Shown here piece by piece: positions 1,576 to 19,321 of a stretch of 64,000 nt of DNA. Both the position numbers and the translations under genes were made by a program. Source of the stretch: Betaproteobacteria bacterium (GTDB taxonomy: Bacteria > Pseudomonadota > Gammaproteobacteria > Burkholderiales > Rhodocyclaceae). Each line of letters begins with the position of its first letter. The first letter of the stretch is position 1. A model generated the notes under the pieces. That model ran no database searches. It was not told the origin of the DNA and worked only from the letters and a program-made list of their open reading frames with translations. The stretch lies in contig JACRAR010000002.1 of assembly GCA_016234745.1 (NCBI GenBank), positions 1-64,000 on the forward strand. Direction: 5' to 3'.

Positions 1576-2070
1576 ATGAGCATCGCAAAAGCACTCAACA
1601 CCCTTGATCTAATCGTGCCCGATCCAAAGTTAGGGTTGCCAGATGAGATGTTTCATTTCATTAGTAGAACTACCCCGCTTGTTAATGTTGATCTGCTGAT
1701 CAAAGACGAACGAAACCGTACCCTGCTCGCGTGGCGCAACGACGCTTATTGCGGGAGAGGATGGCACATCCCCGGCGGTATAATCAGGTTTAAGGAGACG
1801 TTTGAAGAGAGACTGAAAAAAGTTGCAGAGTTGGAAATTGGTACAAGTGTTGATGTTAACCTCTCACCGATTGCAATTAACGAGCTGATCAGTCAACACA
1901 CGGACGTCAGAGGCCACTTTGTTTCAATACTGTTCAAATGTCATTTATCCGGTGAATTTACCCCCGCCAACGCGGAGCTGACAACTGATGACCCCGGATA
2001 TCTCGAGTGGCATGATACGTGCCCAGTCAATTTAATATCGTTTCATAAAATGTATGAAAAATTCCTTTAA
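1576..2070 (+). CDS. Nudix hydrolase, GDP-mannose mannosyl hydrolase-like
   Basis: A 164-residue protein with the Nudix fold pattern. TTPLVNVDLLI leads into LLAWR and then a Nudix-like box starting at GWHIPGGI (about residues 65-90). The box is degenerate: the canonical REUxEExGU segment reads KVAELEIG. That resembles GDP-mannose mannosyl hydrolases (Gmm), which hydrolyse GDP-mannose or GDP-glucose and also lack part of the box. A good Shine-Dalgarno sequence (GAGGTG at 1565-1570) sits 5 bases before the ATG. The gene opens the glycan locus, which fits nucleotide-sugar metabolism. Substrate assignment is by family resemblance only. Confidence 0.75.
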   Translation: MSIAKALNTLDLIVPDPKLGLPDEMFHFISRTTPLVNVDLLIKDERNRTLLAWRNDAYCGRGWHIPGGIIRFKETFEERLKKVAELEIGTSVDVNLSPIAINELISQHTDVRGHFVSILFKCHLSGEFTPANAELTTDDPGYLEWHDTCPVNLISFHKMYEKFL

Positions 2071-2313: not shown

Positions 2314-3963
2314 ATGGTGAAAAGAATTTTGTTTATCGTTCCTCCCTACCTTCGCTTCCACGACTATATCAATCCGCCCTTCAATGCCAAGTCGGTGATG
2401 AAGACAAATGGACGCTTCGGCAGCCTGCCGACGGACATGCCGATAGGCATCCTTTCGCTGAGTTCCTATATTAAGAAATTTCTTCCGGTTGAAACGCGAC
2501 TAGCTGATCTGAACGTTGAGTTGAATAAACTCCAAAGCTTCAATTTCAAATCGTTTCTAGACTTCTATCGGTGGTACTTCTCTACAAGGCTTGGTAACGA
2601 CTTTGAACCGGAAGCTATTGGCATCTCAACATTGTTTACTCCTTCGTACGAGAATATGTTGGAGATCGCAAACTGTTGCCGGGAAATGCATCCCCGAGCG
2701 CTTATATTGGGTGGCGGTGGCATACCTACCAATATGTATAAAGAGATATTTTCGGCATGTTCAGAATTCGACGCCTTGTGCTACGGTGAAGGAGAGCTTC
2801 CCTTGCTCGATTTGGCTCGGTCAAAGAACAAGGCTGAGTTGCTTTCCGTGCACTCTTCGTGGATCACACAGGAAAAAGTGCACGCAGGGCATACATTCGA
2901 GCACAAATTTGTTGAGAATCTGGATGAAATCCCCTTCTATGACTATGACATCTGTGAAATAAGCGAATACGGAGCAAATCCAACCATCTCGTCTTTTGCG
3001 ACCCGTGATAAAAAATTGAACAACTTTCACGTCATGACGTCGCGCGGATGCCCGATGAAGTGTACATTTTGCGCATCGCATTCCGTGCACGGCAGAGACA
3101 TGAGGTATTTCAGCATTGAGCGCATCAAGGAAGATTTTCTGCACCTAATTGAAAAGTTTGGTGCGCAAACCCTCGTTTTCCAAGATGATCACTTTATGGC
3201 CAGCAAGAAGCGTGCGCTTGAAATAATTGACCTTGTGAAAGAACTTGGTGTTAAAGCCGTATTCCAAAATGGATTAGCCCTCTATGCACTTGACCGAACA
3301 ATTCTAGAGGCGCTACGCAGTGCCGGTGTTGAGCAACTGATGCTCCCCGTCGAATCCGGCAGTAACCGTGTCCTACGAAAGATCATGCACAAGTCATTGA
3401 CCACATCGATTATCAGTCGAGTGATCAACGACTGTCGCGAACTGGGAATCTATACCAACGCCGCTATCCTGATAGGCATGCCTGGGGAAACGAAGCAAGA
3501 CATTGAAGATACTCGACAGTTTCTAAAGTCAATCGACACCAACTGGTACATTATTGTGGTTGCCTCCCCCCTGCCAGGTAGCGAAATGCTGAAGACCTGT
3601 ATCGATAAAGATTATCTAAAGAGTGACTATATCTACACCGACTTCCGTCACGCTATCGTTGAAACAGAGGACTTCACAACGGAGTACATCAAGGATGTCA
3701 GTTATGAACTTAACCTGGATTTAAACTTTGTTAATAACAGTGACGTAAGGCTAGGAGAATACGCGACAGCGCTTAAGGGCTTCCATAATGCAATTAATGC
3801 CAAACCCGACCACGCCATTGCACACTATTACGCAGCGCTTTGTTATGAATCACTCGGGGATGCTTCAAGGGCTTGTGAAATGCGAAACGAAGCTATGCGC
3901 ATAGTTGAAGCTGATATGGCATGGCGGAGGTACTTTGAGATGTTTAATCTTCCACTGCAGTGA
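2314..3963 (+). CDS. B12-binding-domain radical SAM protein with C-terminal TPR
   Basis: 549 residues. The N-terminal ~200 residues read as a cobalamin-binding-like domain (ILFIVPP, DMPIGILSLSSYI, ALILGGGGIPTN). The central radical SAM core carries the 4Fe-4S motif C246-x3-C250-x2-C253 (RGCPMKCTFC), followed by FQDDHF and a VESGSNRVL segment typical of B12-dependent radical SAM enzymes. The last ~80 residues hold a TPR-like helix pair (GEYATALKGFHNAI). Such enzymes methylate unactivated carbons or rearrange substrates; here the substrate is unknown and a sugar or lipid is inferred from the neighbours. AGGTG lies only ~2 bases before ATG 2314 but 5 bases before the next codon, GTG 2317, which may be the true start. 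Confidence 0.8.
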   Translation: MVKRILFIVPPYLRFHDYINPPFNAKSVMKTNGRFGSLPTDMPIGILSLSSYIKKFLPVETRLADLNVELNKLQSFNFKSFLDFYRWYFSTRLGNDFEPEAIGISTLFTPSYENMLEIANCCREMHPRALILGGGGIPTNMYKEIFSACSEFDALCYGEGELPLLDLARSKNKAELLSVHSSWITQEKVHAGHTFEHKFVENLDEIPFYDYDICEISEYGANPTISSFATRDKKLNNFHVMTSRGCPMKCTFCASHSVHGRDMRYFSIERIKEDFLHLIEKFGAQTLVFQDDHFMASKKRALEIIDLVKELGVKAVFQNGLALYALDRTILEALRSAGVEQLMLPVESGSNRVLRKIMHKSLTTSIISRVINDCRELGIYTNAAILIGMPGETKQDIEDTRQFLKSIDTNWYIIVVASPLPGSEMLKTCIDKDYLKSDYIYTDFRHAIVETEDFTTEYIKDVSYELNLDLNFVNNSDVRLGEYATALKGFHNAINAKPDHAIAHYYAALCYESLGDASRACEMRNEAMRIVEADMAWRRYFEMFNLPLQ

Positions 3964-4209: not shown

Positions 4210-5121
4210 ATGCGAGTGCCAATAATTTTTCTTGCAGGCTATGGTAGAGAGAACCGGGTATTTTTAGATGCGCGGAAGCTTTGGAGTCTATATACCGCCA
4301 TTGACTCGACGGTGAATAAGCATTACTTCGTTATTTCCAATCTAGCCCTAGAGCCAGGAGAAATATTTTTTCGAGATGGCGACCTGAATGTCGGAGTGGC
4401 TGCGGAACTCAAAACAAAACTCGCGGAGGATTCAACGCGGTTCGAAGTGACCGGCAGTTGGAGCGTTGTAGAAAATAGGATTATCCTTGAGAGGAATATT
4501 AGAGCTTTTGAATATATTTTGGAGTCGAATCCAGGTCCATTCTGGCTTTTTGCATCATCTGTTACCTCGATGATTGGTTTTGACCGATTGGCAAACTTGA
4601 TCGCAGATTGGCCTTGCAGGAATACCTATGGTGGCAAAATTGAATTCATTCAATTACCGGACGGTAAATATATGACGTTTCCGTCTGGGTCCGGGATACT
4701 GTATTCCCGGGACATGGTGGAACTGATTGTTTCAAGAAGTAGGCAGTATAGCCACGACTTGGCATCAGATGTATGGCTTGGCCTGACGTTGTTGGATCAA
4801 ACCAGAACCCCTTTATTCAGATTCGACGTCACTGATGTACCGGATAAGTCAGACAACTACTTCTCGCAACAACAGGCGAAAATCCACGCTGCTGTGAGAG
4901 CTGGACACTTTCATCTTCGCGTGAAAACTTCCGGGAATAGCGCCTTGGCACCAGATCGCTACAAGACGGATGTCAACCTGTTGGTTGAAGCAATGCAGGC
5001 GTTCTCGACCATTCGCGAGGTCAATCAAAGTACGTGCGGCATGTGGGAAAACGAGTGCGCGCGGTATAGTGTCGCTGGCTCTACTTCCATCCCGGCCATC
5101 GTGGATCTCCCTAGACCCTAG
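4210..5121 (+). CDS. Putative Fringe-like glycosyltransferase
   Basis: 303 residues, no signal peptide and no clear membrane segment. The middle of the protein has the order WLFASSVTSMIGFDRL, then a TYGGKI strand, then FPSGSGILYSRDMVELI and DVWLGLTLL. A G-S-G-x-L-Y/S-R segment followed by an acidic D-x-W-L-G is the pattern of Fringe/galactosyltransferase (GT31-like) folds, where the last Asp acts near the acceptor. A classical DxD is not obvious. The gene stands alone between two spacers, is AT-rich, and lies in a locus full of glycosyltransferases. The family call is moderate; donor and acceptor are unknown. Confidence 0.5.
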   Translation: MRVPIIFLAGYGRENRVFLDARKLWSLYTAIDSTVNKHYFVISNLALEPGEIFFRDGDLNVGVAAELKTKLAEDSTRFEVTGSWSVVENRIILERNIRAFEYILESNPGPFWLFASSVTSMIGFDRLANLIADWPCRNTYGGKIEFIQLPDGKYMTFPSGSGILYSRDMVELIVSRSRQYSHDLASDVWLGLTLLDQTRTPLFRFDVTDVPDKSDNYFSQQQAKIHAAVRAGHFHLRVKTSGNSALAPDRYKTDVNLLVEAMQAFSTIREVNQSTCGMWENECARYSVAGSTSIPAIVDLPRP

Positions 5122-5304
5122 TCACCAGGCCATGAGCTACTGTTCGCGTTCTGAGTGTCAAGAAATGAGCCAAGAAATGACTGCAATTATCTAGTTTCCT
5201 GCTCCCGAAAGCCACTTATATTGCCGTAAGTGATAGCTTAGAAATTATTTTCGGGTCCTGCAGGGTTTTCAGTCCGCTAATGATTCGACCAACGGAGACG
5301 TAAC

Positions 5305-6402
5305 ATGAATGACGTTCCTGGAGCCATCGTAAGACCGCGGATACATTCCGCAGAGAAATCGAGACTGGAAGACCTTATTCCACTGGTCACTCCCTTTTCC
5401 GCCCATATAGATGTTTCCAGCGTCTGCAACTTCAAATGCAGCTTTTGCTTTCAGGCCGATACAGAGGGAATGAAAGAAGCCAACCTCAAACGGGGGTTCA
5501 TGCCGATCGAGATGTTCCGGAAAATTGTGGACGATCTTACCGAGTTCGAGCAACCGCTCAAGAAAGTGAAGATAGGCAATCACGGCGAGCCGACACTCCA
5601 CCCGGAACTTCCGTCCATGATTGGATACGTTAGAACCGCTGGCGTTGCTGAAATCGTCGAAATGTTCACCAATGGCTCCAAACTTGACCAGGAACTCTGT
5701 CGAAACATCGTCGAAGCTGGTTTGCAACGGATCAACATCTCGTTGGAAGGCCTTTCAGGAGACCGTTATCTGGCCGTGGCGGGCGTACGGGTCAATTTTG
5801 AAGAATTCATAGAAAACATCCGATACCTCCATAGCATCAAGAAGGATCTACAGATCTACGTCAAGATCGCCGACCAAACTCACAGACTGAGTAAGGATTC
5901 TCAGGAAATTTTCATACTGAACAAAAGCGAGCGGCAACACTTCTACGATGTTTTTTCTTCGATTTGCGACGAAATCTATATCGAAAAGGTCGTTCCGCAA
6001 TGGGCAGAGACACAATACGACAAGCAGAATACCGTCGCCGAAACCGGAATGTACGGACAGGCAATCAGGGGTTACAAAGAAGTATGCCCATTCATCTTTA
6101 TGTATCTCCATTTTAACTGTGACGGCACAACCAGCCCCTGCACGCTCGACTGGCCGCGGAAAGTTGTCATTGGCAATGTCATGGAGCAAAGCGTCAAGGA
6201 GATCTGGACCGGGCTTTTGCTGAGGCAATTGCAAATTGCTCAACTCAAGGGTCAGCGGAACAAGATCGATTTTTGCCGCTCGTGCTCGGCACCAATGGTT
6301 TGTGTCGAGGAGGATCTCGATCCTCATAAAGAACACGCTTTGCGGGTGATGAAAGTCGATGAAAAAGAACTGACAGCCTCGAACCCATGGGTCAAGGACT
6401 AA
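5305..6402 (+). CDS. Radical SAM/SPASM domain protein
   Basis: 365 residues. The radical SAM motif is C41-x3-C45-x2-C48 (VCNFKCSFC), followed by a GEPTLHPEL strand and SLEGLSG, the normal core layout. The C-terminal third has a SPASM-type cysteine set (VCPFIF, SPCTLDWP, CRSCSAPMVC) that would bind auxiliary Fe-S clusters. The start is supported by GGAG about 7 bases upstream. It begins a tight gene run through at least 13217 with spacings under 20 bases or overlaps. SPASM enzymes act on peptides and also on sugars in antibiotic and surface-glycan loci. The neighbouring SDR genes make a nucleotide-sugar or aglycone substrate more likely here, but this is inference. Confidence 0.85.
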   Translation: MNDVPGAIVRPRIHSAEKSRLEDLIPLVTPFSAHIDVSSVCNFKCSFCFQADTEGMKEANLKRGFMPIEMFRKIVDDLTEFEQPLKKVKIGNHGEPTLHPELPSMIGYVRTAGVAEIVEMFTNGSKLDQELCRNIVEAGLQRINISLEGLSGDRYLAVAGVRVNFEEFIENIRYLHSIKKDLQIYVKIADQTHRLSKDSQEIFILNKSERQHFYDVFSSICDEIYIEKVVPQWAETQYDKQNTVAETGMYGQAIRGYKEVCPFIFMYLHFNCDGTTSPCTLDWPRKVVIGNVMEQSVKEIWTGLLLRQLQIAQLKGQRNKIDFCRSCSAPMVCVEEDLDPHKEHALRVMKVDEKELTASNPWVKD

Positions 6403-6409
6403 GCTCGCG

Positions 6410-7273
6410 ATGAAGACAGTACTCCTGCTCGGTGGTACGGGATTCATAGGAAAGAATATTGCCGAATATCTGGCGGCAGATTCCGGCTATCGATTGCTCT
6501 CTCCGAAGAGGACGGAACTGAATCTTCTGGATACGCAGGCATGTGAGGATTTCGTGAAGGCCGCAGCACCGGATGCGGTTATCCACTCGGCTGTCAATAT
6601 TCACTCGATCGAAGAGAACGTCAGGATGTACTTCAATTTCGAGCGTCTGTCAGCACATTACGGAAAGATGATCGTGATCGGCTCGGCTGCTGAATACGAT
6701 ATGCGCAGCTATAAGCCGATGATGACGGAGGAATACTTCGGCTGCAACACCCCGAGCGACACCTACGGGCTGTCGAAATTCATCGCCGCCAGCGACGCCG
6801 AGCGCAAACGGCGCAACATCATCAATCTCAGGGTATTCGGGATCTACGGGAAATACGAGGACTTTACGCGCCGATTCATCTCCAACAACATCTGCAACGT
6901 ACTCTGCGGAAAAGATATCTCGATCAATCGAAACATGGTGTTCGACTATTTGTTCATTGACGACTTCCTTTCGATTATGGAGCAGTTCCTAAGCCGAGAT
7001 TGCAAACATCGCAGTTACAACGTGTGTACCGGACATCCCGTGACCTTGCTCGATCTTGCCCATACCATTGCTTCGCTCATGCCCGAGTACAAAAATCGAA
7101 AGCTCGTCATCAAGAACGAGGGGATGGGAACAGAGTATTCCGGCAACAATCAGAGACTATTGAGTGAATTCGGCGAGACCCGATTCACGGACCATCGGAT
7201 TGCCATCGAAGGTTTAATACAGTGGTACCGAGAAATTTTCAGTGAAGCAAATATCTGCGCCAGGCTGAAATAG
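6410..7273 (+). CDS. NAD-dependent epimerase/dehydratase (extended SDR)
   Basis: 287 residues. The dinucleotide-binding motif G8-G-T-G11-F-I-G14 is at the very N-terminus. The catalytic pair Y119-x3-K123 (YGLSK) and the serine in IGSAAEY are present, so an active nucleotide-sugar epimerase, dehydratase or 4-ketoreductase is expected. Its closest relative in the window is the gene at 8598. Both share LRVFG(I/V)(Y/F)GKYED, the ISINRN/EINRN strand and a FDYL/YDYL block, so they are paralogues flanking a radical SAM gene. The stop codon shares one base with the GTG start of the next gene. The exact sugar is unknown. Confidence 0.85.
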   Translation: MKTVLLLGGTGFIGKNIAEYLAADSGYRLLSPKRTELNLLDTQACEDFVKAAAPDAVIHSAVNIHSIEENVRMYFNFERLSAHYGKMIVIGSAAEYDMRSYKPMMTEEYFGCNTPSDTYGLSKFIAASDAERKRRNIINLRVFGIYGKYEDFTRRFISNNICNVLCGKDISINRNMVFDYLFIDDFLSIMEQFLSRDCKHRSYNVCTGHPVTLLDLAHTIASLMPEYKNRKLVIKNEGMGTEYSGNNQRLLSEFGETRFTDHRIAIEGLIQWYREIFSEANICARLK

Positions 7274-8601
7274 TGTCCAGCCCTAAAGTTGCGGTGCAAA
7301 CAGATCCTCGTGCCAGATTGATTTCCGATATTGGCGACCGGGAAGTCGTCATTTGGGGCGCGCGCATGACCGGAATAGGTTTCGCACGTTTTGCCAAGGC
7401 TCAGGGGATTCGTACCCGCGCTTTTATAGATTCCGATCCCGCTTTGCGAGGCAAGACGGTCAGTGGCATCCGAATCTACCCACCGGACTACTTGGCTGAG
7501 CTCGTTGCCACCGGAACACGATTCGTCGTGGTCTTGGCGGTCTCGATCAAAGAAGACGAGATTATCAGTAGTCTCACTGGCTATGGGTTGTCCGCCGACG
7601 ATCTAATCGTTTATTCAAAATACTGCAAGGTCTTTTATACGATAGACGTCGTCGGCTCATGCAATCTGAAATGTCCTTCGTGCGTGCATGGGACGCCAGA
7701 CAACAGTATGCCCACTGGTTTGATGAGCCTGGATACCTTCAAGAAGGTGATTGACAAAATCAAAACGGATGCGCCGCTGGTGACTCATGTCGGGCTGTAT
7801 AACTGGGGCGAGCCTTTCCTTCACCCGGAACTGCACCACATCGTGGATCATTTGCACCGCAATGACATTGCCGTGGCAATCTCCAGCAACCTGTCGTTCC
7901 GCTTCGCGGACCGCCTAGATCGCGTCATCAAAGCCAATCCGGAGTACTTGAAAGTCTCCGTGTCCGGGTACTTTTCTAAAGCCTACAACAATACGCATAC
8001 CGGAGGCGACGTTAACCTCGTCAAGTCGAACATGTATCGGCTCAGATATTTGATCGACCGATACAGCGCCGACACATTGGTCGATGTCAATTACCACCTG
8101 TACAAGGACAACAATGGGATCAACCTGACGAAAATGCGGGAACTTTGCACAGAGCTTGGCTTTGTGTTGTCGACAGTCAATGCCCTGGTGATGCCGTTGG
8201 AAAAAGTCCTCAAGCATTGTGAGGGGAGGCCAGATCCAGATACGGTGCGCCTGAGCGAGAACCTGCTGGTCAGCATCGATGAGGGGATCAGTGCCGCATC
8301 CATGTTCAAGTCTTCGAGGTGCTCGTTCATGGACAACCAGGTGAACATCAATTTCGACCTCACGGTGCCAATCTGTTGCACTGTAGCCGAACGTCAGGGC
8401 AATATCGTCGAGGAGAATTTCCTGGCTTCAACACCACGCAGTATCGAAGAGAAAAAGGCGCAGGCCTCAATCTGCATGAAGTGCATGGCTTACGGGCTTC
8501 CCGAATACAACATGGGGTACAACCGAGCTGCCTGGGATGAGATCGCCAGTTCAAAGGGAAGTTGCGACTCAGGTTCGACTGGAGGCAGTCAAACGACATG
8601 A
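7273..8601 (+). CDS. Radical SAM protein with N-terminal Rossmann-like domain
   Basis: 442 residues, GTG start overlapping the previous stop by one base. Residues ~15-115 form a nucleotide-binding-like fold (DREVVIWGARMTGIGFARF, then AFIDSDPALRGKTVSGI), similar to the CoF/Rossmann segments found on sugar-modifying and C-methyltransferase proteins. The radical SAM core begins with C130-x3-C134-x2-C137 (SCNLKCPSC) and has NWGEPFLHPEL. C-terminal cysteines (SRCSF, VPICCT, SICMKCM) suggest a SPASM/twitch auxiliary cluster. The fusion of a Rossmann-like unit to a SPASM radical SAM enzyme is uncommon. It sits between two paralogous SDR genes, which implies a shared substrate. Product unknown. Confidence 0.8.
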   Translation: MSSPKVAVQTDPRARLISDIGDREVVIWGARMTGIGFARFAKAQGIRTRAFIDSDPALRGKTVSGIRIYPPDYLAELVATGTRFVVVLAVSIKEDEIISSLTGYGLSADDLIVYSKYCKVFYTIDVVGSCNLKCPSCVHGTPDNSMPTGLMSLDTFKKVIDKIKTDAPLVTHVGLYNWGEPFLHPELHHIVDHLHRNDIAVAISSNLSFRFADRLDRVIKANPEYLKVSVSGYFSKAYNNTHTGGDVNLVKSNMYRLRYLIDRYSADTLVDVNYHLYKDNNGINLTKMRELCTELGFVLSTVNALVMPLEKVLKHCEGRPDPDTVRLSENLLVSIDEGISAASMFKSSRCSFMDNQVNINFDLTVPICCTVAERQGNIVEENFLASTPRSIEEKKAQASICMKCMAYGLPEYNMGYNRAAWDEIASSKGSCDSGSTGGSQTT

Positions 8602-9524
8602 GAATACTGATCACAGGTGCTGAAGGATTTGTCGGCAGGAATCTTCGGGAGCATTTCTCCAGAAATGCATCGGTAGAAGAAGTATTTGCACCGACGTTCA
8701 ACGAGATGGATCTACGCTCAGCGGATGCTGTCAGGCACTACATGTCGGGAAAAGAAATTGACGTGATCGTGCATTCGGCCACAACCATGCCGAAGGGCAA
8801 GACATACCCACCGACGGTCTGCGAAGACAACCTGCGAATGTTCTTCAACCTCCTCAGAGGCTTGGGGTCATCGATGCGTTTGATCAACCTGGGGAGTGGT
8901 TCCGAATACTCGCGGGAGTACTGGCACTCGAAAATTTCTGAGGAATTCTTCGACAGCCATGTGCCCAACGACCCACATAGCTATTCTAAGTATGTAATAT
9001 CAAAATACATTATCAATAACGACCGCCATGATCTCTTGACCCTGAGAATCTTTGGCGTGTTTGGCAAGTATGAGGATTACCGCTACAAATTCATCTCGAA
9101 CACAATCGCAAAAAATCTGCTCGGCCTTAACATCGAGATTAACCGAAATGCCTGGTACGACTACCTCGATGTGGCGGATTTGTGTCGTATCGTCGAGTTC
9201 TTCGCCTTCAATAATCACCGGCATGCCGATTACAACGTTACACCAACCGATTCGATCGAACTCACTGGTATTCCCAGATTAGTGAATGATATCGCGTTAT
9301 GTCCTTCGGCCATCAATGTGCTGAATGAAGGGTTAGGCATCCCGTGTACAGGTTGTAATGGCAGACTACTGAAAGAACTTGGCGATTTTCGGTTTACTAG
9401 CTACGCAGAGTCTATTTCATCCTTGTTCAAACATTATTCGGGCCGGATACATGAGCTTGATCGGGCAGCTCTGGTCAATGACGATTTTCTCAACTATGCG
9501 AAAAGCTTGCAAAAGCAAGCCTAG
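8598..9524 (+). CDS. SDR epimerase-like protein with altered catalytic tyrosine
   Basis: 308 residues starting at ATG 8598, in ATGA overlap with the upstream radical SAM gene; a longer in-frame start 36 bases upstream is less likely. The motif G7-x2-G10-x2-G13 (TGAEGFVG) binds NAD(P). It aligns along its length with the SDR at 6410. In that alignment, however, the YGLSK catalytic segment becomes HSYSK (residues 127-131), so the catalytic Tyr position is His. A second Y132-x3-K136 is present but out of register with the downstream LRIFG strand. It may act as a non-redox epimerase, use another acid/base, or be inactive. Substrate unknown. Confidence 0.8.
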   Translation: MRILITGAEGFVGRNLREHFSRNASVEEVFAPTFNEMDLRSADAVRHYMSGKEIDVIVHSATTMPKGKTYPPTVCEDNLRMFFNLLRGLGSSMRLINLGSGSEYSREYWHSKISEEFFDSHVPNDPHSYSKYVISKYIINNDRHDLLTLRIFGVFGKYEDYRYKFISNTIAKNLLGLNIEINRNAWYDYLDVADLCRIVEFFAFNNHRHADYNVTPTDSIELTGIPRLVNDIALCPSAINVLNEGLGIPCTGCNGRLLKELGDFRFTSYAESISSLFKHYSGRIHELDRAALVNDDFLNYAKSLQKQA

Positions 9525-9541
9525 ATAATCTGGCACTCGCG

Positions 9542-10600
9542 ATGATGAACAGAATCATTCAAGAAGATCTCGGCTACATCGTCAGCGCACCTTTGCCTTG
9601 GAAAGAGCTCGAGGCCACCACTTTTCTGGTGACCGGCGCAACGGGGTTTCTCGGCGGATATTTTGTGGACGTACTGCTCCAATTGCGCCGCAGCTTCGGC
9701 CTCGATATCAAAATCATATGTCTGGTCAGAAATCCCGATAAGGCCCGTGACCGATTTCCCAATGCCGAGTCAAGGGAACTGATTATTATCAACGCCGATC
9801 TGAATTCGCCGATCATCATCGATCGCAAGGTAGATTTCATCATCCACGCGGCAAGCAATGCGACGCCCAAGCTGTTCAACGGAGACCCAGTTGGAACCGC
9901 ACTACCGAACACATTAGGAACGATCAACCTGCTTACCCTGGCGGCTAAGCAGCGAGTGCGGGGCTTCCTTTTTTTCAGCACCACCGGTGTCAATGGATTC
10001 GTCGATGATGCGTTGCGACCGATCGACGAAACGTGTTTCGGCGGTCTGGATCCCATGAAGGTTGCGCACACCTATCTTGAGAGCAAGCGAATGGGTGAAA
10101 CCCTCTGTGTCGCCTGGATGCATCAATACGGCGTCCCGATCAAAGTGGTCCGGCCGGCAATCACGTATGGGCCCGGGATTGCCTTTGACGACGGCAGATC
10201 TTACGCCGACTTTATCTCATGCCTGGTCCAAAAGAAGGACATTACCTTATTCAGCGATGGCAAGGCGATCAGAAATTTCTGCTATGTTGCCGACGCAATT
10301 CTGGGCATTTATTTTGTGTTGCTCAAAGGCGAAGCGGGACAAGCATACAACGTGGCAACCGACGAGGAAATCAGTATAGGAGACTTGGCGGAGCACTTGG
10401 TCAAGGATGTGTTTCCGGAAAGAAATCTAACGGTCAGATATGTTGTTGACACTGCGAAAGACTTTTTACGGGTCAATTTTGCACGAACGACCGTCCAAAT
10501 AGAAAAACTGAAGGCATTGGGCTGGCACTTGTCATTTCCCCTGGCCACAGGTTTCAGGCGAACAGTCGAGAGCTATGAGACCGGGAGTGAAAGCACTTGA
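9542..10600 (+). CDS. NAD-dependent sugar epimerase/dehydratase (extended SDR)
   Basis: 352 residues. The motif G32-x2-G35-x2-G38 (TGATGFLG) lies after a ~25-residue N-terminal extension. The catalytic Y178-x3-K182 (YLESK) is intact, with FFSTTGVNG supplying the catalytic Ser/Thr. IKVVRPAITYGPG, FCYVADAI and AYNVATDEE are the usual sugar-nucleotide-binding segments of UDP-glucuronate decarboxylase and dTDP-glucose dehydratase relatives. It is more distant from the two SDRs upstream. It ends in a TTGA overlap with the HAD gene. Likely a nucleotide-sugar dehydratase, decarboxylase or ketoreductase; the substrate cannot be fixed from motifs. Confidence 0.85.
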   Translation: MMNRIIQEDLGYIVSAPLPWKELEATTFLVTGATGFLGGYFVDVLLQLRRSFGLDIKIICLVRNPDKARDRFPNAESRELIIINADLNSPIIIDRKVDFIIHAASNATPKLFNGDPVGTALPNTLGTINLLTLAAKQRVRGFLFFSTTGVNGFVDDALRPIDETCFGGLDPMKVAHTYLESKRMGETLCVAWMHQYGVPIKVVRPAITYGPGIAFDDGRSYADFISCLVQKKDITLFSDGKAIRNFCYVADAILGIYFVLLKGEAGQAYNVATDEEISIGDLAEHLVKDVFPERNLTVRYVVDTAKDFLRVNFARTTVQIEKLKALGWHLSFPLATGFRRTVESYETGSEST

Positions 10601-11244
10601 GCCGTCATTTTCCCAATCTCGCTGTCTATGACCTGGACGGAACACTCGTAGACAGCATTTGCCAAGTCCATGAAATCCTTAACGGTCTAAGGGCTGAACT
10701 TGGCAAACGTCCCCTGGAGGTTGGACAACTCGTCCCCTGGATCAGTCTTGGTGGAATCGAACTGATGATAAATGCCCTTGAAGTTCGGCGAGAGGAAGCG
10801 GAGTCCCACCTGAAGACATTCAGAGCACGCTACCTTGCGGAGAAGACACCGAAGCGGCTGGTGTACGATGGCGTTTTCGAGGCACTGGAGCACTTTCAGG
10901 AACGACATTGCAGTCTTGCCATTTGTACCAACAAGCCGCGAAATTTGGTGGAAAAGGTTCTTAGCGAAACGGGCTTGGCGAATTACTTTCCCTGCGTCGT
11001 GGCAGGTGGTGACCTCCCTACCCAAAAACCGAATCCCGCGAATCTTCTGTGTTGCCTCGAGCATTTTGACCTGCAACCCTCACAGGCAATCTTTATCGGA
11101 GATAGTCGAGTGGACCAGATGACGGCGGAGTCGGCTGATGTGCCGTTCATTTTCTTTAGCGCCGGGTATGATGATGGTGTGTTCGGAATTGAAAACGGCT
11201 TCACGATAAGTCGTCATTCTGAAACAAGCAGTCTTTTTCAATAA
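10597..11244 (+). CDS. HAD-superfamily phosphatase, phosphoglycolate-phosphatase-like
   Basis: 215 residues, TTG start whose last two bases form part of the upstream TGA; GGGAG about 9 bases upstream supports it. Motif I is D12-L-D14-G-T with V-D-S following. Motif II is the CTN of ICTNKPR. Motif III is the lysine of QKPNP, and motif IV is GDSRVDQMTA. The cap insertion after motif I (C1 type) matches Gph/PhnX-like members. In this operon it may dephosphorylate a sugar phosphate or the product of the downstream aldolase. Substrate inferred only from context. Confidence 0.85.
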   Translation: MSRHFPNLAVYDLDGTLVDSICQVHEILNGLRAELGKRPLEVGQLVPWISLGGIELMINALEVRREEAESHLKTFRARYLAEKTPKRLVYDGVFEALEHFQERHCSLAICTNKPRNLVEKVLSETGLANYFPCVVAGGDLPTQKPNPANLLCCLEHFDLQPSQAIFIGDSRVDQMTAESADVPFIFFSAGYDDGVFGIENGFTISRHSETSSLFQ

Positions 11245-11262
11245 GACCGGGAGAATAGCAAC

Positions 11263-12069
11263 ATGAATCTACTTGAACACAAAATGCTGACGATACTCAA
11301 ACGCCTCAAGAATGAGTATGGCGCAGTAGCTGTAAAAGCCGAATTTGAAGCCGAAGGTACACGGACTGACGAACTCTTGCGCCTCGTCGAGATTACTCGC
11401 AAGGCCTCCCTGGATATCGTGCTCAAGATCGGCGGCTGTGAAGCGATTCGTGACATCATCGAGAGCAAGCAGATAGGCGTCGAATACGTGATCGCCCCGA
11501 TGGTCGAGAGCCCTTATGCCCTGTCGAAGTTCATCGAAGCAAAGAACAAGGTCTATTCGCTTGAGGAACAGGAAGATACGCAGTTCTTGGCGATGGTGGA
11601 AACCATAACCAGTTTTTCGCATCTGGATGAAATCGTCAAGCTTTGTGCAGCTTCCGACGGACTAGAGGGTATCGTCTTTGGCAGAGTGGACTTTGCCGGC
11701 TCACTGGGACTCGGCAGGGAAGTCAACTCTCCAAAGATATCGGAATACTGCATCAAGACTGGCACAGCTTGTAAGACACATGGTCTTGAACTCGTCGTGG
11801 GAGGTGGAATATCCGTTGATGCCCTCCCTGCCTTGAGGTCAATCGAGGCAAACTATCTCACGCGATTTGAAACCAGAAAAGTGGCGTTTGCAGCGGAGGC
11901 CATGAAAAATGAGCCCGCCGTGACCAAGGCATTACTCGATGCCGTTCACTTCGAACTGCTTTGGCTTCTGAACAAGAAGAAATATTACGCATTCATCTCG
12001 GCGGAGGACGACAAGAGAATCGAGATGCTTGAGAGTCGTTGGAAAGTGCTCGGAAACGAAGGTCTTTGA
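11263..12069 (+). CDS. HpcH/HpaI aldolase/citrate-lyase family protein
   Basis: 268 residues forming a TIM-barrel-like pattern. Metal-ligand candidates are E82 (APMVESP) and D143 ([10 protein letters not shown]). The latter strand resembles the G-x-x-D-L/F-x-x-S-L-G motif of HpaI/citrate-lyase beta relatives. [10 protein letters not shown] near the N-terminus corresponds to the acidic first strand. The family cleaves or forms C-C bonds with pyruvate or acetyl-CoA enolates using a divalent metal. Placed between a HAD phosphatase and a C-methyltransferase in a glycan cluster, it may build a ketoacid-derived or higher-carbon sugar. The C-terminal ~60 residues are extended and basic. The substrate is unknown. 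Confidence 0.75.
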
Positions 12070-12077
12070 TCTCCAAG

Positions 12078-13217
12078 ATGGATTGTCGCATGTCCTTGTG
12101 TCGGCTTTGCAAGCATGATCTGACCAACCATTCGGTGGTGACGCTAGCGCCTTTCCCTTCGGCAGCGCAGTATTTCCCCGGTCCGGGTGAGTTCGATCAA
12201 GACAGCGGGATAACGCTGGAAGTGATGCAATGCCCGATGTGCGCACTCGTTCAACTGGCCAATCCACCCGTGGCATATTTTAAGGAAGTCATTACTGCTG
12301 CCTCGCTATCCCCCATAGCGAGGCAGACACGGCTCGGCGAGTTTAAACGTTTCGTCGAGGAGTTTGAACTAGCGGGATCCAAGGCGATCGAGATCGGCTC
12401 TGGGAAAGGAGACATGATTGGCGTTCTTCGGGATGCCGGACTCAAGGCGGTCGGTCTGGAGTACTCTGAAGACTCTGTGGCGTTCGCACGTGCCAACAGC
12501 CATGAGGCCTTTTGCGGATACGTCGAGGACGTCACGTTGCCTGACCAATATCGTTTTTTCGCATGTCTCAACTACCTCGAGCATCAGCCGGATATTGGTT
12601 CGTTCATTCGAGCGCTCCACCGAATCACCGATGACCAGTCGTTCGGTTATATCACCGTACCCAATCTCGACTACCTGCTGACGAATGCGTACCTGTACGA
12701 ATTCGTTGCCGACCATCTGGTCTACTTTACCCGGCAAACGCTCACACGTGCTTTCGAGCTCCATGGATTTGAAGCGCTTCGCTGCACCCTGATCAATAAC
12801 CAGAACGACATCGCCCTGCTGGTAAAGAAAAGACAACCTTTGGTAATTAAAGAGGAGCGCAGCAAAGTGGACTTGCTGTGCGAACATTTGCGCAAGATCG
12901 TCGCTGATATACACAAACGCGGCAGCAAGGTTGCCGTCTGGGGTGCGGGCCACCGTACGCTCGCATTGCTCGCGATCTCCGGAATCCGGGGCATCGAATT
13001 CGTTGTCGATTCGGCCAGCTTCAAACAGGGCAAATATACGCCATTAACCCATTTCAAGATCGTGTCTCCATCTCAGCTTGAGGTATCCGATGTGGATACC
13101 GTTATCGTTATGGTTCCAGGTATTTATCCTGAAGAGGTGGTCAAGTCGGTGAAAAACATGAACCGCCCGATTCACGTCCTGATGCAAAAAGGAAACACCA
13201 TATTGGAGGCGGATTGA
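12078..13217 (+). CDS. SAM-dependent C-methyltransferase-like protein (zinc-binding N-terminus)
   Basis: 379 residues from ATG 12078; in-frame ATGs at 12039 and 12090 are alternatives. An N-terminal CRLCKHDL and CPMCALVQL pair resembles the zinc-binding domain of sugar C-methyltransferases (TylC3/EvaC/NovU type). The SAM-binding motif is AIEIGSGKGDMIGVL, with VGLEYSE as motif II. The C-terminal third has VAVWGAGHRTLALL and FVVDSASFKQGKY, the typical second Rossmann-like domain of that family. These enzymes add a methyl to a carbon of a nucleotide 4-keto sugar, usually C-3. The catalytic Tyr/His/Glu set could not be checked by eye. It overlaps the TPP-enzyme gene by 4 bases. Confidence 0.8.
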   Translation: MDCRMSLCRLCKHDLTNHSVVTLAPFPSAAQYFPGPGEFDQDSGITLEVMQCPMCALVQLANPPVAYFKEVITAASLSPIARQTRLGEFKRFVEEFELAGSKAIEIGSGKGDMIGVLRDAGLKAVGLEYSEDSVAFARANSHEAFCGYVEDVTLPDQYRFFACLNYLEHQPDIGSFIRALHRITDDQSFGYITVPNLDYLLTNAYLYEFVADHLVYFTRQTLTRAFELHGFEALRCTLINNQNDIALLVKKRQPLVIKEERSKVDLLCEHLRKIVADIHKRGSKVAVWGAGHRTLALLAISGIRGIEFVVDSASFKQGKYTPLTHFKIVSPSQLEVSDVDTVIVMVPGIYPEEVVKSVKNMNRPIHVLMQKGNTILEAD

Positions 13218-15097
13218 AAATTTCCACGGATCTGTCTTCCTCCTCCCCAAGCCGGATGCGAGTTGCCGACTACATCGCCGCGCGATGCGTCGCCGCAGGT
13301 CTGCGCGATGTATTCCTGGTCACTGGCGGTGGCGCAATGCACCTCAACGATGCGTTCTCGAGAAATCGCGAATTGCGCTGCCTCTGTTTCCACCATGAGC
13401 AAGCAGCTGCCATTGCTGCCGAAGGATACTGCCGTACGGTAAATCGGCCGGCGGTACTCAATGTGACTACCGGCCCAGGAGGGATCAATGCCCTGAACGG
13501 TGTTTATGGCGCCTTTGTTGACTCGATCGGCATGCTTGTTGTGTCGGGCCAGGTAAAACGGGAAACCTATGCCCGCAGCTACGCTCTGCCTTTGAGGCAA
13601 CTCGGGGACCAGGAAGTGGACATTGTTTCGATGGCGCGATCCGTGACGAAATACTCGACTACATTGTTTGATCCGTCTCATGTTCGTGAAGTGATGGACA
13701 AAGCGCTTTATTTGGCGACGAGCGGCCGCCCCGGACCTGTCTGGATCGACGTCCCGGTTGACGTTCAAGGCACCGTCATTGATACGTGCGCACTGGCCGG
13801 TTTTGATGGCAACTTGCGTTCGCTTGCAGCAGACAGGGATGTTTCGGACAACACAAGAAGAGAACTACTGGACTTGCCCCCCGTTCCTGACGAAAAAGCC
13901 ATCGAAGAGATCATGCAACGACTGGCTCAGGCTAAACGTCCGGTGATCATGGCAGGCACGGGCGTGAGAGTTTCTGGCATGCACGAGCAATTCCTTGAGC
14001 TTGTTGAGAAGCTCGGGATTCCTGTGGTGACGGGCTGGAATGCGCACGACTTGTTGGCCTCCGATCATCCGTGTTACGCGGGCCGCCCCGGAACAGTGGG
14101 AGATCGACCCGGTAATTTCACCGTCCAGAATGCAGACTTCCTGCTCGTTCTTGGATGCCGTTTGAATATTCGCCAAATCAGCTATAACTGGCAGAGCTTC
14201 GCATCGCACGCCTGGAAAGCGATGGTTGATGTTGACAGCGCCGAGCTTCAAAAACCCACCGTTAACGTGGATCTGAAGGTTCATTCCCGTTTGCAGGATT
14301 TTATTCCGTACTTGTGCAGCCATCTCGTCTCATATCAGGTGCCGCGAGAACATTTGAAGTATCTGGAGTGGTGCCTGGAGCGCGTAAGGAAATACCCTAC
14401 GCTATTACCGGAGTATCGGCAGCGCGATACTCCGATCAATCCCTACGTGTTCATTGATGATCTCTTCTCTATGTTGGACCAGGACGCGGTGATTGTTGCC
14501 GGCAACGGCTCGGCCTGTGTCATCGGTTTCCAGGCGGCCAAGCTGAAGCGCGGGCAGCGTTTTTTCACAAACTCGGGGAATGCGTCGATGGGCTTCGACC
14601 TGCCCGCAGCCATCGGTGCTTGCATTGCGTTGGAAAAGAGAAAAGTAATCTGTCTTGCCGGCGATGGAAGTCTGATGATGAACCTGCAGGAACTCCAGAC
14701 ATTGGTTGGTTGCAAACTGCCGGTCAAGGTGATCATTCTGAACAACGGTGGTTATCACTCGATACTGCAGACTCAGCGCGCCTATTTTGCCGACAACCTG
14801 TTCGGCTGCGGTCCTGAGAACGGCGTTACTTTCCCGGACTTTATCAAGCTTGGCGAGGCGCTGGGCATAGCATCGATAAGAGTTTCATCGCTACCTGAAT
14901 GGTCGTCAGACCCCGTGCGTGCACTGATGTCGAGTTTCGCCCCCGCACTGATAGAAGTCATGCTGGATCCCGAGCAGCAATTTTCCCCAAAGCTTGCCTC
15001 CAGAAAAGATGCAGATGGTCGAATGCTGACGCCCTCTCTTGAAGATATGTCGCCCTTCCTGTCTCGCGAAGAGCTGTCAAACAATATGTTCACTTAG
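13214..15097 (+). CDS. Thiamine-pyrophosphate enzyme, acetolactate synthase-like (possible YerE-type)
   Basis: 627 residues, TTG start overlapping the upstream TGA, with GGAGG 4 bases before. The proposed cofactor-activating E62 lies in HHEQAA. The TPP motif G483-D-G485 is followed by 24 residues and N510-N511. GGINALNGVYGAF and GRPGPVWIDVPVD are AHAS-family signatures. Housekeeping acetolactate synthase is separately encoded at 44959, so this copy is specialised. In Yersinia, YerE is an AHAS-like TPP enzyme that transfers an acetyl unit to CDP-4-keto-3,6-dideoxyglucose to make yersiniose. With rfbF-rfbG-rfbH downstream, a similar branched-sugar role is a reasonable inference. Confidence 0.85.
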   Translation: MKISTDLSSSSPSRMRVADYIAARCVAAGLRDVFLVTGGGAMHLNDAFSRNRELRCLCFHHEQAAAIAAEGYCRTVNRPAVLNVTTGPGGINALNGVYGAFVDSIGMLVVSGQVKRETYARSYALPLRQLGDQEVDIVSMARSVTKYSTTLFDPSHVREVMDKALYLATSGRPGPVWIDVPVDVQGTVIDTCALAGFDGNLRSLAADRDVSDNTRRELLDLPPVPDEKAIEEIMQRLAQAKRPVIMAGTGVRVSGMHEQFLELVEKLGIPVVTGWNAHDLLASDHPCYAGRPGTVGDRPGNFTVQNADFLLVLGCRLNIRQISYNWQSFASHAWKAMVDVDSAELQKPTVNVDLKVHSRLQDFIPYLCSHLVSYQVPREHLKYLEWCLERVRKYPTLLPEYRQRDTPINPYVFIDDLFSMLDQDAVIVAGNGSACVIGFQAAKLKRGQRFFTNSGNASMGFDLPAAIGACIALEKRKVICLAGDGSLMMNLQELQTLVGCKLPVKVIILNNGGYHSILQTQRAYFADNLFGCGPENGVTFPDFIKLGEALGIASIRVSSLPEWSSDPVRALMSSFAPALIEVMLDPEQQFSPKLASRKDADGRMLTPSLEDMSPFLSREELSNNMFT

Positions 15098-15148
15098 GAC
15101 TTTATGTTGTCGCCCTTAACCGTTATTTCAAAGGCAAAGGAATACAAG

Positions 15149-16139: not shown

Positions 16140-16916
16140 ATGAAAGCGGTCCTGCTAGCTGGTGGCCTTGGAACAAGGATTTCCGAGGAAACGGCACTCA
16201 AGCCCAAACCCATGGTCGAGATCGGCGGTAAACCCATCCTGTGGCACATCATGAAGATCTACTCCCATTACGGGATCAACGATTTCATCATATGCTGCGG
16301 CTACAGGGGATACGTGATCAAGGAATACTTTGCCAACTATTTCCTCCACATGTCAGACGTCACCTTTGACATGCAGGAAAACAAAATGGAAGTGCATCAG
16401 CGTTACGTCGAACCCTGGCGCGTGACGCTCGTCGATACCGGCGAAGACACGATGACAGGCGGTCGCCTCAAGCGGGTTGCCGACTACATCAAGGATGAAG
16501 AAGCGTTCTGTTTCACTTATGGTGATGGTCTCGGCAACATCAACATTGCGCGTCTTGTCGAGTTTCATCGCGCGCATGGCCTCCAAGCCACAGTGACCGC
16601 CACTTACCCTCCGGGGCGCTTTGGCGCGCTGAATATCGATCACACTCAGCGGGTCGTGGCGTTTCAGGAAAAACCCCAGGGAGATGGCGGGCTCATCAAT
16701 GGCGGATTTTTTGTGCTTTCTCCGAAGGTGATCAGCCTCATTGCCGGCCCCCATACACCTTGGGAACGCGAGCCTCTGGAAGAACTGGCCCGATCGAGCC
16801 AGATCAAGGCCTTTACGCATGAAGGCTTCTGGCAGCCCATGGACACGCTGCGCGACAAAAATATGTTGGAAGAACTCTGGGCCAGCGGCAAGGCCCCCTG
16901 GAAAGTTTGGTCATGA
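16140..16916 (+). CDS. rfbF: Glucose-1-phosphate cytidylyltransferase
   Basis: 258 residues, the usual family length. The nucleotidyltransferase signature A7-G-G-L-G-T-R13 followed by [12 protein letters not shown] is intact. YGDGLGN supplies the metal-binding Asp. The [13 protein letters not shown] and GRFGAL segments match RfbF/DdhA. It converts glucose-1-phosphate and CTP to CDP-glucose, the first committed step of CDP-3,6-dideoxyhexose synthesis. It overlaps rfbG by 4 bases (ATGA), so the rfbFGH genes form one transcription unit. Confidence 0.95.
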
Positions 16917-17998
16917 ACAAAGATTTCTGGCGTGGCAAGCGGGTCTTTGTCACAGGCCACACCGGCTTCAAAGGAAGCTGGCTGTCCTTGTGGCTTCAGC
17001 AGACGGGCGCCCAGGTTACCGGATATGCGCTTGAACCACCGACAAACCCCAGCTTGTTTGAACTCGCCAGTGTTGGGCAAGGCATGCAGTCCCGGATCGC
17101 AGATATTCGCGATCCGGATGCGCTTTCTGGAGCCATGAACCAAAGCCGTCCGGAAATTGTGTTCCACATGGCGGCCCAGGCACTGGTTCGCCATTCCTAT
17201 GCCAACCCGGTCGAGACTTATGCCACCAACGTGATGGGGACCGTGCATCTGCTCGAAGCCGTCCGCCGCACTTCAAGCGTCAAGGCCGTAATCAACATCA
17301 CCTCCGACAAGTGCTACAAGAACCAAGAATGGGTTTGGAGTTATCGCGAGAATGATTCCCTAGGTGGCCATGATCCCTACAGCAGCAGCAAAGCATGCTC
17401 CGAACTGGTGACAGATGCCTACCGGAATTCCTACTTCAATCCAATTGACCAGGACAAGTACGTCGCAGCCGTCGCCAGCGCCCGCGCCGGCAACGTAATA
17501 GGCGGCGGCGACTGGGCCATGGATCGACTGATCCCCGACATCTTGCGCGCCATCGAAAAAGGCGAACCGGTCTGCATTCGTAGTTCGCAAGCTATCCGTC
17601 CTTGGCAGCATGTGCTTGAACCTCTGAGCGGTTACCTCAGGCTCGCTGAAAAACTCTACAACGAAGGTTCAACCTACGCGGAAGAGTGGAACTTCGGCCC
17701 TTCGGAAGAAGACGCCAAGTCCGTTCAATGGATTGTCGATTACATGGTCCGCTCCTGGGGTGAAGGAACATCATGGTCCATGGACAAAGCGAATCACCCC
17801 CACGAGGCTAACACCCTAAAACTGAACACCTCAAAGGCGCGAGCCAAACTCCAATGGGCTTCGCGCTGGGATGTTCAGACTGCTCTTGAGAGCATCGTGT
17901 CGTGGCACAAGGCCTATCTTTTAGGCGGGAACATGAAAGACATCACGCTCCGACAAATAGCGCAGTACGAATCCTCAGTGAATTGCTCAATGAATTAA
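16913..17998 (+). CDS. rfbG: CDP-glucose 4,6-dehydratase
   Basis: 361 residues from ATG 16913 in the ATGA overlap. [12 protein letters not shown] is the N-terminal NAD-binding motif characteristic of this enzyme. The YSSSK catalytic segment is preceded by [10 protein letters not shown], both diagnostic of CDP-glucose 4,6-dehydratases. [11 protein letters not shown] and [14 protein letters not shown] are further family signatures. It makes CDP-4-keto-6-deoxy-D-glucose, the substrate of RfbH. Length matches RfbG/DdhB. Very secure. Confidence 0.95.
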
Positions 17999-18004
17999 CT
18001 TGTC

Positions 18005-19321
18005 ATGGAAAGAACTGAACAGATCCGCCAAGAAATTGCCGCCCTCGTTGAAGAGTACGCCGAGCTAGCTTTCGCATCCAAACCCTTCATACCCGGCAGC
18101 TCAGTCGTCCCTCCTTCAGGGAAAGTCATCGGTGCCGCTGAGCTCAATAACATGGTTGAAGCCTCGCTCGACGGATGGCTGACCACGGGTCGCTTCAACG
18201 ACGCCTTCGAGGATCGCCTGGCTACATTTCTTGGAGTAAAACACGCTATCACGGTCAACTCAGGGTCTTCGGCCAACTTGATTGCCTTCTCAACGCTTAC
18301 GAGCCACAGGCTCGGTGACCGCGCCATCATCCCTGGTGACGAAGTCATAAGCGTGGCGGCCAGCTTTCCAACCACGGTTAACCCCATCCTGCAGTTTGGC
18401 GCGGTACCTGTATTTGTAGATGTAACCATACCCATCTACAACATAGATGTCAGCAGGATTGAAGCCGCCATTAGCCCAAAAACCAAAGCGATCATGCTTG
18501 CCCATACCCTGGGCAATCCCTACAACCTCTCTGAAGTGACCCGTATCGCAAGGAAACACAATCTCTGGCTCATTGAAGATTGTTGCGACGCTCTGGGTTC
18601 AACCTACGAAGGCCGACATGTCGGCACTTTCGGAGACATTGGCACGCTGAGCTTTTATCCGGCCCACCACATCACCATGGGGGAAGGCGGCGCCGTATTC
18701 ACCAACGATGATGCGCTCAATGACATTGCGCAGTCGTTTCGCGACTGGGGACGGGATTGCTACTGCATGCCAGGCAAGGATAACACTTGCGGCAAGCGCT
18801 TTTGCTGGAAGCTGGGCAGCTTGCCGAAAGGCTATGACCACAAATACACGTACAGCCACCTTGGCTACAATCTAAAGGTCAGCGATATGCAGGCTGCATG
18901 CGCACTGGCGCAGATGGACCGTCTTCCCGGTTTTATTCATGCCCGAAAGAAAAACTTTGCCTATCTGAAAGAACGACTCGACAGCTGTGAGGAATTCTTG
19001 ATCCTTCCCGAGGCAACCAGCAACAGCGATCCGTCCTGGTTCGGCTTCCCAATCACGTTAAGGGACAGCGCACAGGTTTCCCGCCTTGATCTCCTCAAGT
19101 ACTTGGACCAACATAAGATTGGAACCCGTCTCCTGTTTGCGGGCAACGTGACTCGACAGCCATACATGCAGGGCCGCAATTTCAGAATCAGCGGCGAACT
19201 GTCGAATACCGACTTGATCATGAACAATACTTTTTGGATTGGCGTGTATCCTGGCTTAAGCGAGGAAATGCTCGATTACACTGCCGAGAAAATTGAAACT
19301 TTCCTTGGTGTAAATTTCTGA
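18005..19321 (+). CDS. rfbH: CDP-4-keto-6-deoxyglucose 3-dehydrase (E1), 2Fe-2S/PMP enzyme
   Basis: 438 residues. The aspartate-aminotransferase fold has His (H221 of YPAHH) where ordinary PLP enzymes have the Schiff-base Lys, the hallmark of RfbH/E1. The 2Fe-2S ligands C194-x57-C252-x1-C254-x7-C262 match the published E1 spacing. It removes the C3 hydroxyl of CDP-4-keto-6-deoxyglucose. Electrons normally come from the reductase DdhD/RfbI (E3), which I do not find anywhere in the window; it may be elsewhere or replaced by a generic ferredoxin reductase. It starts 6 bases after rfbG. The product feeds a 3,6-dideoxyhexose. Confidence 0.96.

Follow-up and report, generated by a model that had tools for sequence, protein, structure and literature searches.

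In this study, we analysed a 64,000-nucleotide stretch of DNA from a Betaproteobacteria bacterium of the Rhodocyclaceae (assembly GCA_016234745.1, contig JACRAR010000002.1, positions 1 to 64,000; hereafter the window), in which four genes at 5305-9524 encode two radical S-adenosylmethionine (SAM) proteins, rSAM1 and rSAM2, alternating with two short-chain dehydrogenases/reductases (SDRs), SDR1 and SDR2. The conserved unit is rSAM1-SDR1-rSAM2, and SDR2 belongs to a separate module with the next gene, SDR3. These points come directly from gene content, conservation, adjacency, cysteine and tyrosine motifs and predicted folds. The genes are a real, recurring and coherent set, whose chemistry is predicted. 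We consider it fairly probable that the conserved cassette makes a cytidine diphosphate (CDP)-activated, C4-branched 3,6-dideoxy sugar of surface glycans, and that this sugar is tailored by rSAM1-SDR1-rSAM2. The five genes are as follows.

5305..6402, + strand: rSAM1, radical SAM enzyme with a BtrN-like twitch (half-SPASM) C-terminal domain (Pfam Radical_SAM and SPASM, Cys set, AlphaFold model)
6410..7273, + strand: SDR1, extended SDR with intact YxxxK, directly 3' of rSAM1 (Pfam Epimerase, motif, locus counts)
7273..8601, + strand: rSAM2, Rossmann-like N-terminal domain, radical SAM core and twitch-like Cys set (3nkl match, Cys set, model)
8598..9524, + strand: SDR2, SDR paralogue with the catalytic Tyr replaced (His/Gln), adjoining SDR3 (Pfam Epimerase, alignment, tree)
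9542..10600, + strand: SDR3, SDR with a YLESK motif, adjoining SDR2 (Pfam, motif, locus counts)

Recurrence and layout of the gene unit

The recurrence of the unit was evaluated at 22 loci, which were obtained by scanning contigs with four rSAM1 orthologues and selected by the presence of one of two rSAM1 peptide patterns, a choice biased to close relatives; three members of a survey of 398 genomes recur among these loci and are not independent cases. The locus stretches were at most ~21 kb and several were cut by contig ends, which makes absences uncertain. Their open reading frame (ORF) maps came from a simple caller, in which open frames were ranked by similarity to the window proteins with a floor of 80 amino acids, and the identity thresholds for family counts were set by us. 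The rSAM1 comparison used rows of at least 300 amino acids (the window and 21 loci, 22 in total), which formed 17 clusters at 90% identity with pairwise identities of 49-99% (median 60%).

SDR1 was found directly 3' of rSAM1 at all 22 loci (ORF calling gave 20, and tblastn recovered the copies of L044 and L045; the SDR1 of L049 was cut by the contig end), and because this adjacency recurs at every locus, the arrangement is more than chance. The rSAM2 gene was present at 18 loci and followed SDR1 directly in 14 by ORF calling. SDR2 and SDR3 were each counted at 13 loci and FkbM at 10. Wherever SDR2 was present (13/13), SDR3 came directly after it, often with FkbM next, and besides the window only one locus (L058) had rSAM2 directly 5' of SDR2. 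At least one of the RfbF, RfbG and RfbH genes occurred at 19/22 loci; the counts of the other sugar genes are given with those genes below.

The order of a radical SAM gene, an SDR gene, a radical SAM gene with a Rossmann-like domain and a second SDR gene, described in an earlier sequence-only reading of this DNA, agreed with the coordinates, with the Pfam matches (Radical_SAM in rSAM2, Epimerase in SDR1 and SDR2) and with the match of rSAM2 to the PDB entry 3nkl. The overlaps of 1-4 bases in the same reading hold for two of the three junctions: the TAG of SDR1 and the GTG of rSAM2 share 1 base (position 7273), and the ATG of SDR2 (8598) and the TGA of rSAM2 (8599-8601) give a 4-base overlap, whereas the TAA of rSAM1 (6400-6402) and the ATG of SDR1 (6410) are separated by a 7-base gap with zero overlap. 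The SDRs are paralogues, as had been thought (SDR1 and SDR2 align over 282 columns at 32% identity, E 1e-49). Between the two radical SAM proteins, similarity is confined to the core domain (26% identity, 121 residues), and their architectures differ. The idea of a duplicated radical SAM/SDR unit was rejected on the basis of this divergence, of the adjacencies at the loci and of the SDR tree described below. Promoter-like sites (7, against a mean of 13.8 in shuffles) and terminator-like sites (20, against a mean of 15.4) gave no signal in 3900-20000.

The 22 loci belong to alpha-, beta-, gamma- and deltaproteobacteria and Magnetococcales, with hosts from the Rhodospirillales, Hydrogenophilales, Methylocystaceae, Rhodocyclaceae, Rickettsiales, Geobacteraceae and others; named hosts include Azonexus fungiphilus, Pseudoalteromonas neustonica and Magnetovibrio blakemorei. 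The G+C content is 47.8% in 1576-9524 against 57.7% in 35300-64000, and among 30 relatives (three of the same genus, 15 of the same family and 12 of the same order) rSAM1 was not found outside its own genome. Because of this G+C gap, the absence from the 30 relatives and the scattered taxonomy, horizontal acquisition of 1576-9524 is probable.

The radical SAM proteins and the SDRs

The CX3CX2C motif of rSAM1 (C41, C45, C48) was present in 21 of the 22 rows, the remaining row being truncated there, and C261, C279, C324 and C327 were kept in all 22. The Pfam SPASM profile matched rSAM1 (E 1.2e-12). SPASM is a seven-Cys motif that holds two auxiliary clusters; of such a motif, rSAM1 keeps just C261, C279, C324, C327 and C333. 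BtrN is a radical SAM alcohol dehydrogenase of butirosin biosynthesis. Its cysteines align with C279, C324 and C327, and its fourth auxiliary ligand presumably corresponds to C261. The AlphaFold model of rSAM1 (20 sequences) had a pLDDT (predicted local distance difference test score) of 81.7, with values below 50 in stretches within 42-51 and 231-244, and the low-confidence loop surrounds the core cluster. BtrN (4m7t) was the best structural match of this model (Z 20.1 over 238 residues, root-mean-square deviation 3.1, 19% identity), about 2 Z units ahead of DesII (18.0), which was followed by SkfB (17.3) and BlsE (17.0), and BtrN also came first in Foldseek. The CX3CX2C motif, the four auxiliary cysteines and the overall fold thus mark rSAM1 as a putative BtrN-like twitch radical SAM enzyme. 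Since rSAM1 resembles BtrN, we infer from the model that it may oxidise a hydroxyl which SDR1 then re-reduces.

Residues ~14-101 of rSAM2 match 3nkl, a UDP-D-quinovosamine 4-dehydrogenase fragment (E 5.9e-8; Z 12.8 over 105 residues, 28% identity). C130, C134 and C137, together with C350, C368, C369, C401 and C404, were conserved in 19/19 rows. An AlphaFold model of this Rossmann-radical SAM fusion had been suggested as a check; the model (18 sequences) had a pLDDT of 88.5, and its fold does not fix the substrate. For the radical part, SuiB, anSME, DesII, BlsE and MoaA all lie within ~1.5 Z units, and enzymes acting on sugars and on peptides reach much the same scores (about Z 18-19), which gives no indication of the substrate. 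No structure covered both domains well among the matches listed.

In the survey of 398 genomes, two full-length rSAM2 orthologues had 47-48% identity (G189, G061) and the others were more distant. The neighbourhoods of these relatives contained HpcH, rSAM1, SDR1, rSAM2, HAD, NUDIX, C-methyltransferase or thiamine diphosphate (ThDP) enzyme genes. Two further observations concern rSAM2-like genes. Plasmid CP026658.1 (locus L021) of the cockroach-gut isolate Deltaproteobacteria bacterium Smac51 carries five rSAM2-like proteins (27-34% identity over ~400 aligned residues), along with a sixth, weakly matching protein and one B12-radical SAM protein, with mostly hypothetical annotations. At 5577-9357 of L025, three tandem rSAM2-like genes lie directly 3' of genes for RfbF, RfbG, a 3,5-epimerase, a C-methyltransferase and an SDR.

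SDR1 kept GxxGxxG and YxxxK in all 20 aligned sequences, the copies of L044 and L045 being read separately, and has the features of an extended SDR. SDR2 failed the tyrosine test for extended SDRs: the catalytic Tyr position of YxxxK is His in 10 and Gln in four of 14 sequences, and the Lys and the Rossmann glycines are kept (13 rows). The loss of Tyr is a feature of every SDR2 member rather than a defect of one locus. SDR3 has YLESK in 14/14. In a tree of 20 SDR1 and 14 SDR2 sequences, the two groups were separated on one branch (support 96/98), and therefore the SDR duplication is old and occurred without a duplication of the radical SAM genes. The Tyr-less SDR2 (14/14) stands beside an intact SDR3 at 13/13 loci, and a pseudoenzyme-enzyme pair is possible.

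The proposed sugar pathway and the predicted role of the radical module

The genes around the core include the following; counts refer to the 22 loci.

1576..2070, + strand: NUDIX hydrolase, recurring cassette member (Pfam NUDIX; 8/22)
2314..3963, + strand: B12-binding radical SAM protein with a C-terminal tetratricopeptide repeat (TPR), recurring cassette member (Pfam; 9/22)
10597..11244, + strand: HAD phosphatase, phosphoglycolate-phosphatase-like (Pfam/NCBIfam; this or the NagD type at 16/22, nine of one type and seven of the other)
11263..12069, + strand: HpcH/HpaI-type aldolase-like protein, candidate maker of the 2-oxo-acid donor (Pfam HpcH_HpaI; 19/22)
12084..13217, + strand: C-methyltransferase with Methyltransf_13/23/14 architecture (21/22)
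13256..15097, + strand: YerE/JanthE-type ThDP-dependent carboligase (PDB 8rph, E 9e-108; 18/22)
16140..16916, + strand: RfbF-like glucose-1-phosphate cytidylyltransferase (15/22)
16907..17998, + strand: RfbG-like CDP-glucose 4,6-dehydratase (15/22)
18005..19321, + strand: RfbH-like CDP-4-keto-6-deoxyglucose 3-dehydrase (16/22)

At one further locus, L074, a ThDP gene lies farther out on the same contig and is not among the 18 counted. An FkbM methyltransferase gene is also located 3' of the core in the window. The names RfbF, RfbG and RfbH in the window are our assignments by family, in line with annotated rfbF and rfbG genes. The sequence-only reading had placed these jointly acting genes on a sugar, and a sugar is still the most likely target, as the neighbours are nucleotide-sugar genes and both radical SAM proteins stay below the NCBIfam cut-offs among the models listed. 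A known family with an unrelated substrate, for example peptide maturation, would have spoken against it; no curated cut-off, maturases included, was reached by rSAM1 among its best 25 of 48 families or by rSAM2 in its 23 matches in total.

The ThDP enzyme aligned with 8rph from end to end (610 residues). E48, which we take to be the catalytic Glu, and G469-D470-G471 were invariant in 13 sequences, and the GDG of the window protein is canonical. With this whole-enzyme homology, the GDG motif, the Glu and the RfbF/G/H-type genes alongside (16140-19321), the protein is predicted to be a YerE-like carboligase. The peculiarity of JanthE is a CDG motif, according to PMC12247030; because 8rph, named in the PDB as thiamine pyrophosphate-binding protein, carries this motif, we took it as JanthE. 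In the HpcH-type protein, E113 and D143 were invariant in 15 sequences. HpcH aldolases give 4-hydroxy-2-oxo acids as their product type. YerE moves a pyruvate-derived unit onto CDP-3,6-dideoxy-4-keto-glucose, and ErwE favours 4-hydroxy-2-oxo acids (both from PMC12247030). By analogy, the HpcH-type aldolase could supply ErwE-type 4-hydroxy-2-oxo acids. The gene set therefore points to a CDP-linked, C4-branched 3,6-dideoxy sugar, a class predicted from homology to characterised enzymes; rSAM1-SDR1-rSAM2 would be a tailoring module that such a pathway may have or lack.

The association was also examined from the ThDP enzyme. In the 398 genomes, 19 had a ThDP match at E <= 1e-150. Among the five genomes above 890 bits, HpcH was nearby in 5/5 and rSAM1 in 4/5. 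Of the 14 genomes below 750 bits, 11 were mapped (G041, G101 and G173 were outside the mapping, and the stretches L064 and L065 were short), and HpcH, rSAM1 and rSAM2 were found in none. HpcH thus tracks one ThDP subgroup. In three genomes of one family (G044, G009 and G040), remote rSAM1-like or rSAM2-like proteins (~33% identity) lie directly 3' of an SDR; their clusters also hold RfbF, RfbG and a C-methyltransferase, and a 3,5-epimerase-type gene is shown in two of the three (L034, L025); the stretches examined contain zero ThDP or HpcH matches. Because these remote proteins occur in CDP-glucose clusters that lack both, a nucleotide sugar is favoured over a keto acid as the substrate.

The reactions of rSAM1, SDR1, rSAM2, SDR2 and the HpcH-type protein, their order and the final product are predicted as follows. 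RfbF, RfbG and RfbH would give CDP-3,6-dideoxy-4-keto-glucose, and the HpcH-type aldolase would provide the 2-oxo-acid donor, which the YerE/JanthE-type enzyme would decarboxylate and add to the C4 ketone to form a branched tertiary alcohol. With its BtrN-like twitch domain, rSAM1 would then abstract a carbinol hydrogen and turn a hydroxyl of the branched sugar into a ketone, and SDR1 with NAD(P)H would reduce this ketone on the opposite face, which amounts to a net epimerisation. A second radical change would be made by rSAM2, whose Rossmann domain may bind a nucleotide. SDR2-SDR3 would be a separate reductase module, in which the Tyr-less SDR2 may be a structural aid to SDR3 or may use another acid. 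We tentatively propose, as a possibility in which we have limited confidence, that rSAM1-SDR1-rSAM2 is an editing module of radical oxidation and hydride reduction: rSAM1 may oxidise an unactivated hydroxyl of the CDP-linked branched sugar, SDR1 may invert it and rSAM2 may edit again, and the module may pass from one bacterial class to another and plug into ThDP/aldolase pathways of branched sugars.

Several observations weigh against the main reading, a tailored branched sugar. Within the stretches, rSAM2 was not found at four of the 22 loci, one of which runs into the end of its contig. The HpcH-like protein is only distantly related to aldolases of solved structure (best E 0.0037), which makes its role as an aldolase uncertain. 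Besides the four cysteines mentioned, C333 is conserved in rSAM1 as a fifth auxiliary Cys, where the BtrN alignment has Val, and C221 is invariant as well. The peptide-modifying enzymes SkfB, SuiB and ChlB score close behind BtrN, and the fold leaves the substrate unfixed. Finally, G163 (L062), which is among the five genomes above 890 bits, has the ThDP enzyme, HpcH and RfbF/G with zero rSAM1 matches in its genome; therefore, the radical module is an optional addition to the aldolase/ThDP core.

A rather unlikely alternative is that rSAM1 removes water from a 1,2-diol, in the sugar or in its branch, and that SDR1 reduces the resulting ketone, with net deoxygenation as in AprD4-AprD3. That system is a characterised pair of a radical SAM enzyme and an NADPH-dependent reductase acting on a sugar (PMC5461906), and its pairing logic resembles the rSAM1-SDR1 adjacency at 22/22 loci. 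However, rSAM2 has no match to the AprD4 model NF033070, which is also absent from the best 25 of 48 families of rSAM1; the nearest fold to rSAM1 is BtrN, and RfbH would already cover 3-deoxygenation in the cassette. Less likely again, and in our view improbable, is a role of the radical enzymes in the HpcH/ThDP branch arm, where they would modify the donor keto acid or its precursor ahead of attachment to the CDP sugar. HpcH stands directly 5' of rSAM1 at 8/22 loci, and HpcH and rSAM1 go with the same ThDP subgroup, but G163 has HpcH and the ThDP enzyme without rSAM1, and the remote clusters of G044, G009 and G040 have the radical proteins without either. The 4-base overlap in the window and the second adjacency at L058 would suit rSAM2-SDR2 as a second functional pair added to rSAM1-SDR1 in this lineage, which we regard as very unlikely; SDR2 as the partner of rSAM2 was rejected because of its adjacency to SDR3 (13/13), its position directly after rSAM2 at 1/22 loci and its loss of Tyr (14/14). 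Modification of a peptide or protein (ribosomally synthesised and post-translationally modified peptide or enzyme maturation) by radical SAM proteins lying in a sugar cluster by accident is highly improbable and was rejected on the NCBIfam scores of the models listed: the best, distant match of both is a maturase model, TIGR04317 (84 bits for rSAM1 and 61 for rSAM2), and peptide-modifying enzymes have the same fold, but the cut-off of that model is 380 bits and sugar genes are present at 19/22 loci, with small precursor genes not searched below the ORF floor of 80 amino acids.

Other genes of the window were also recorded. A 303-amino-acid protein with zero Pfam or NCBIfam matches is encoded at 4210-5121, between the B12-radical SAM gene and rSAM1. 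Beside the sugar cluster, 23503-25422 encodes a TPR protein with a Glyco_transf_41 (OGT/SPINDLY-like) domain, which is likely a cytoplasmic protein O-glycosyltransferase. The sugar genes are flanked (82-1449; 29822-35302) by genes for an ALTTAQ-repeat protein, close to the start of the window, for a DUF4214/PPC protein and for a type I secretion pair of ABC transporter and HlyD. Together with the Glyco_transf_41 protein, these flanking genes suggest a glycosylated secreted protein.

Comparison with known systems

More than 200 YerE-like enzymes have been predicted, and nearly all of them still await identification of their branched sugar (PMC12247030). The cassette offers a well-delimited gene set that recurs, also in named isolates, probably for one of these sugars, which it ties to radical SAM chemistry. 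It raises two testable questions: how a CDP-sugar is changed by a radical SAM enzyme that resembles BtrN and always has an SDR beside it, and what purpose is served by an SDR that lacks the catalytic Tyr in every member. If the proposed editing module is true, radical SAM chemistry would be a new assignment for this class of surface-polysaccharide sugars. Literature searches found no radical SAM enzyme in this branched-sugar class and no characterised pathway with this gene order, as the sequence-only reading had stated; some key papers of the YerE field were beyond their reach and might already list such clusters.

DesII, BlsE and AbmM act on sugars or nucleosides, and rSAM2 has the core fold in common with them (Z 18.4, 18.1 and 12.6); only its radical part aligns, at 14-15% identity, and not its Rossmann-like domain. 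The N-terminal domain of rSAM2 is like 3nkl. In the 3nkl family this domain stands before an SDR-type catalytic domain, whereas in rSAM2 it stands before a radical SAM core. Like BtrN, rSAM1 has a radical SAM core and a twitch domain with aligned C-terminal cysteines, but it is ~100 residues longer than BtrN, carries the extra invariant C333 and C221 and has a constant SDR neighbour. Like the cassette, AprD4-AprD3 of apramycin biosynthesis joins a radical SAM enzyme to a reductase; the action of this pair on a sugar is established biochemistry, with dehydration as the radical step (PMC5461906). It differs from the window proteins, as rSAM2 has no match to the AprD4 model and the B12-radical SAM protein reaches 78.7 bits against its cut-off of 500. 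The text of PMC12247030, in which the pathways of YerE, ErwE and JanthE (yersiniose A, erwiniose) are described, holds 0 occurrences of "radical SAM". The cassette is like these systems in its CDP-glucose genes and in its YerE-like carboligase, and it adds to them an HpcH-type aldolase, a C-methyltransferase, two or three radical SAM proteins, SDR1 and SDR2-SDR3. From its genes, it appears to be a variant of the known branched-sugar pathway to which radical SAM enzymes have been added.

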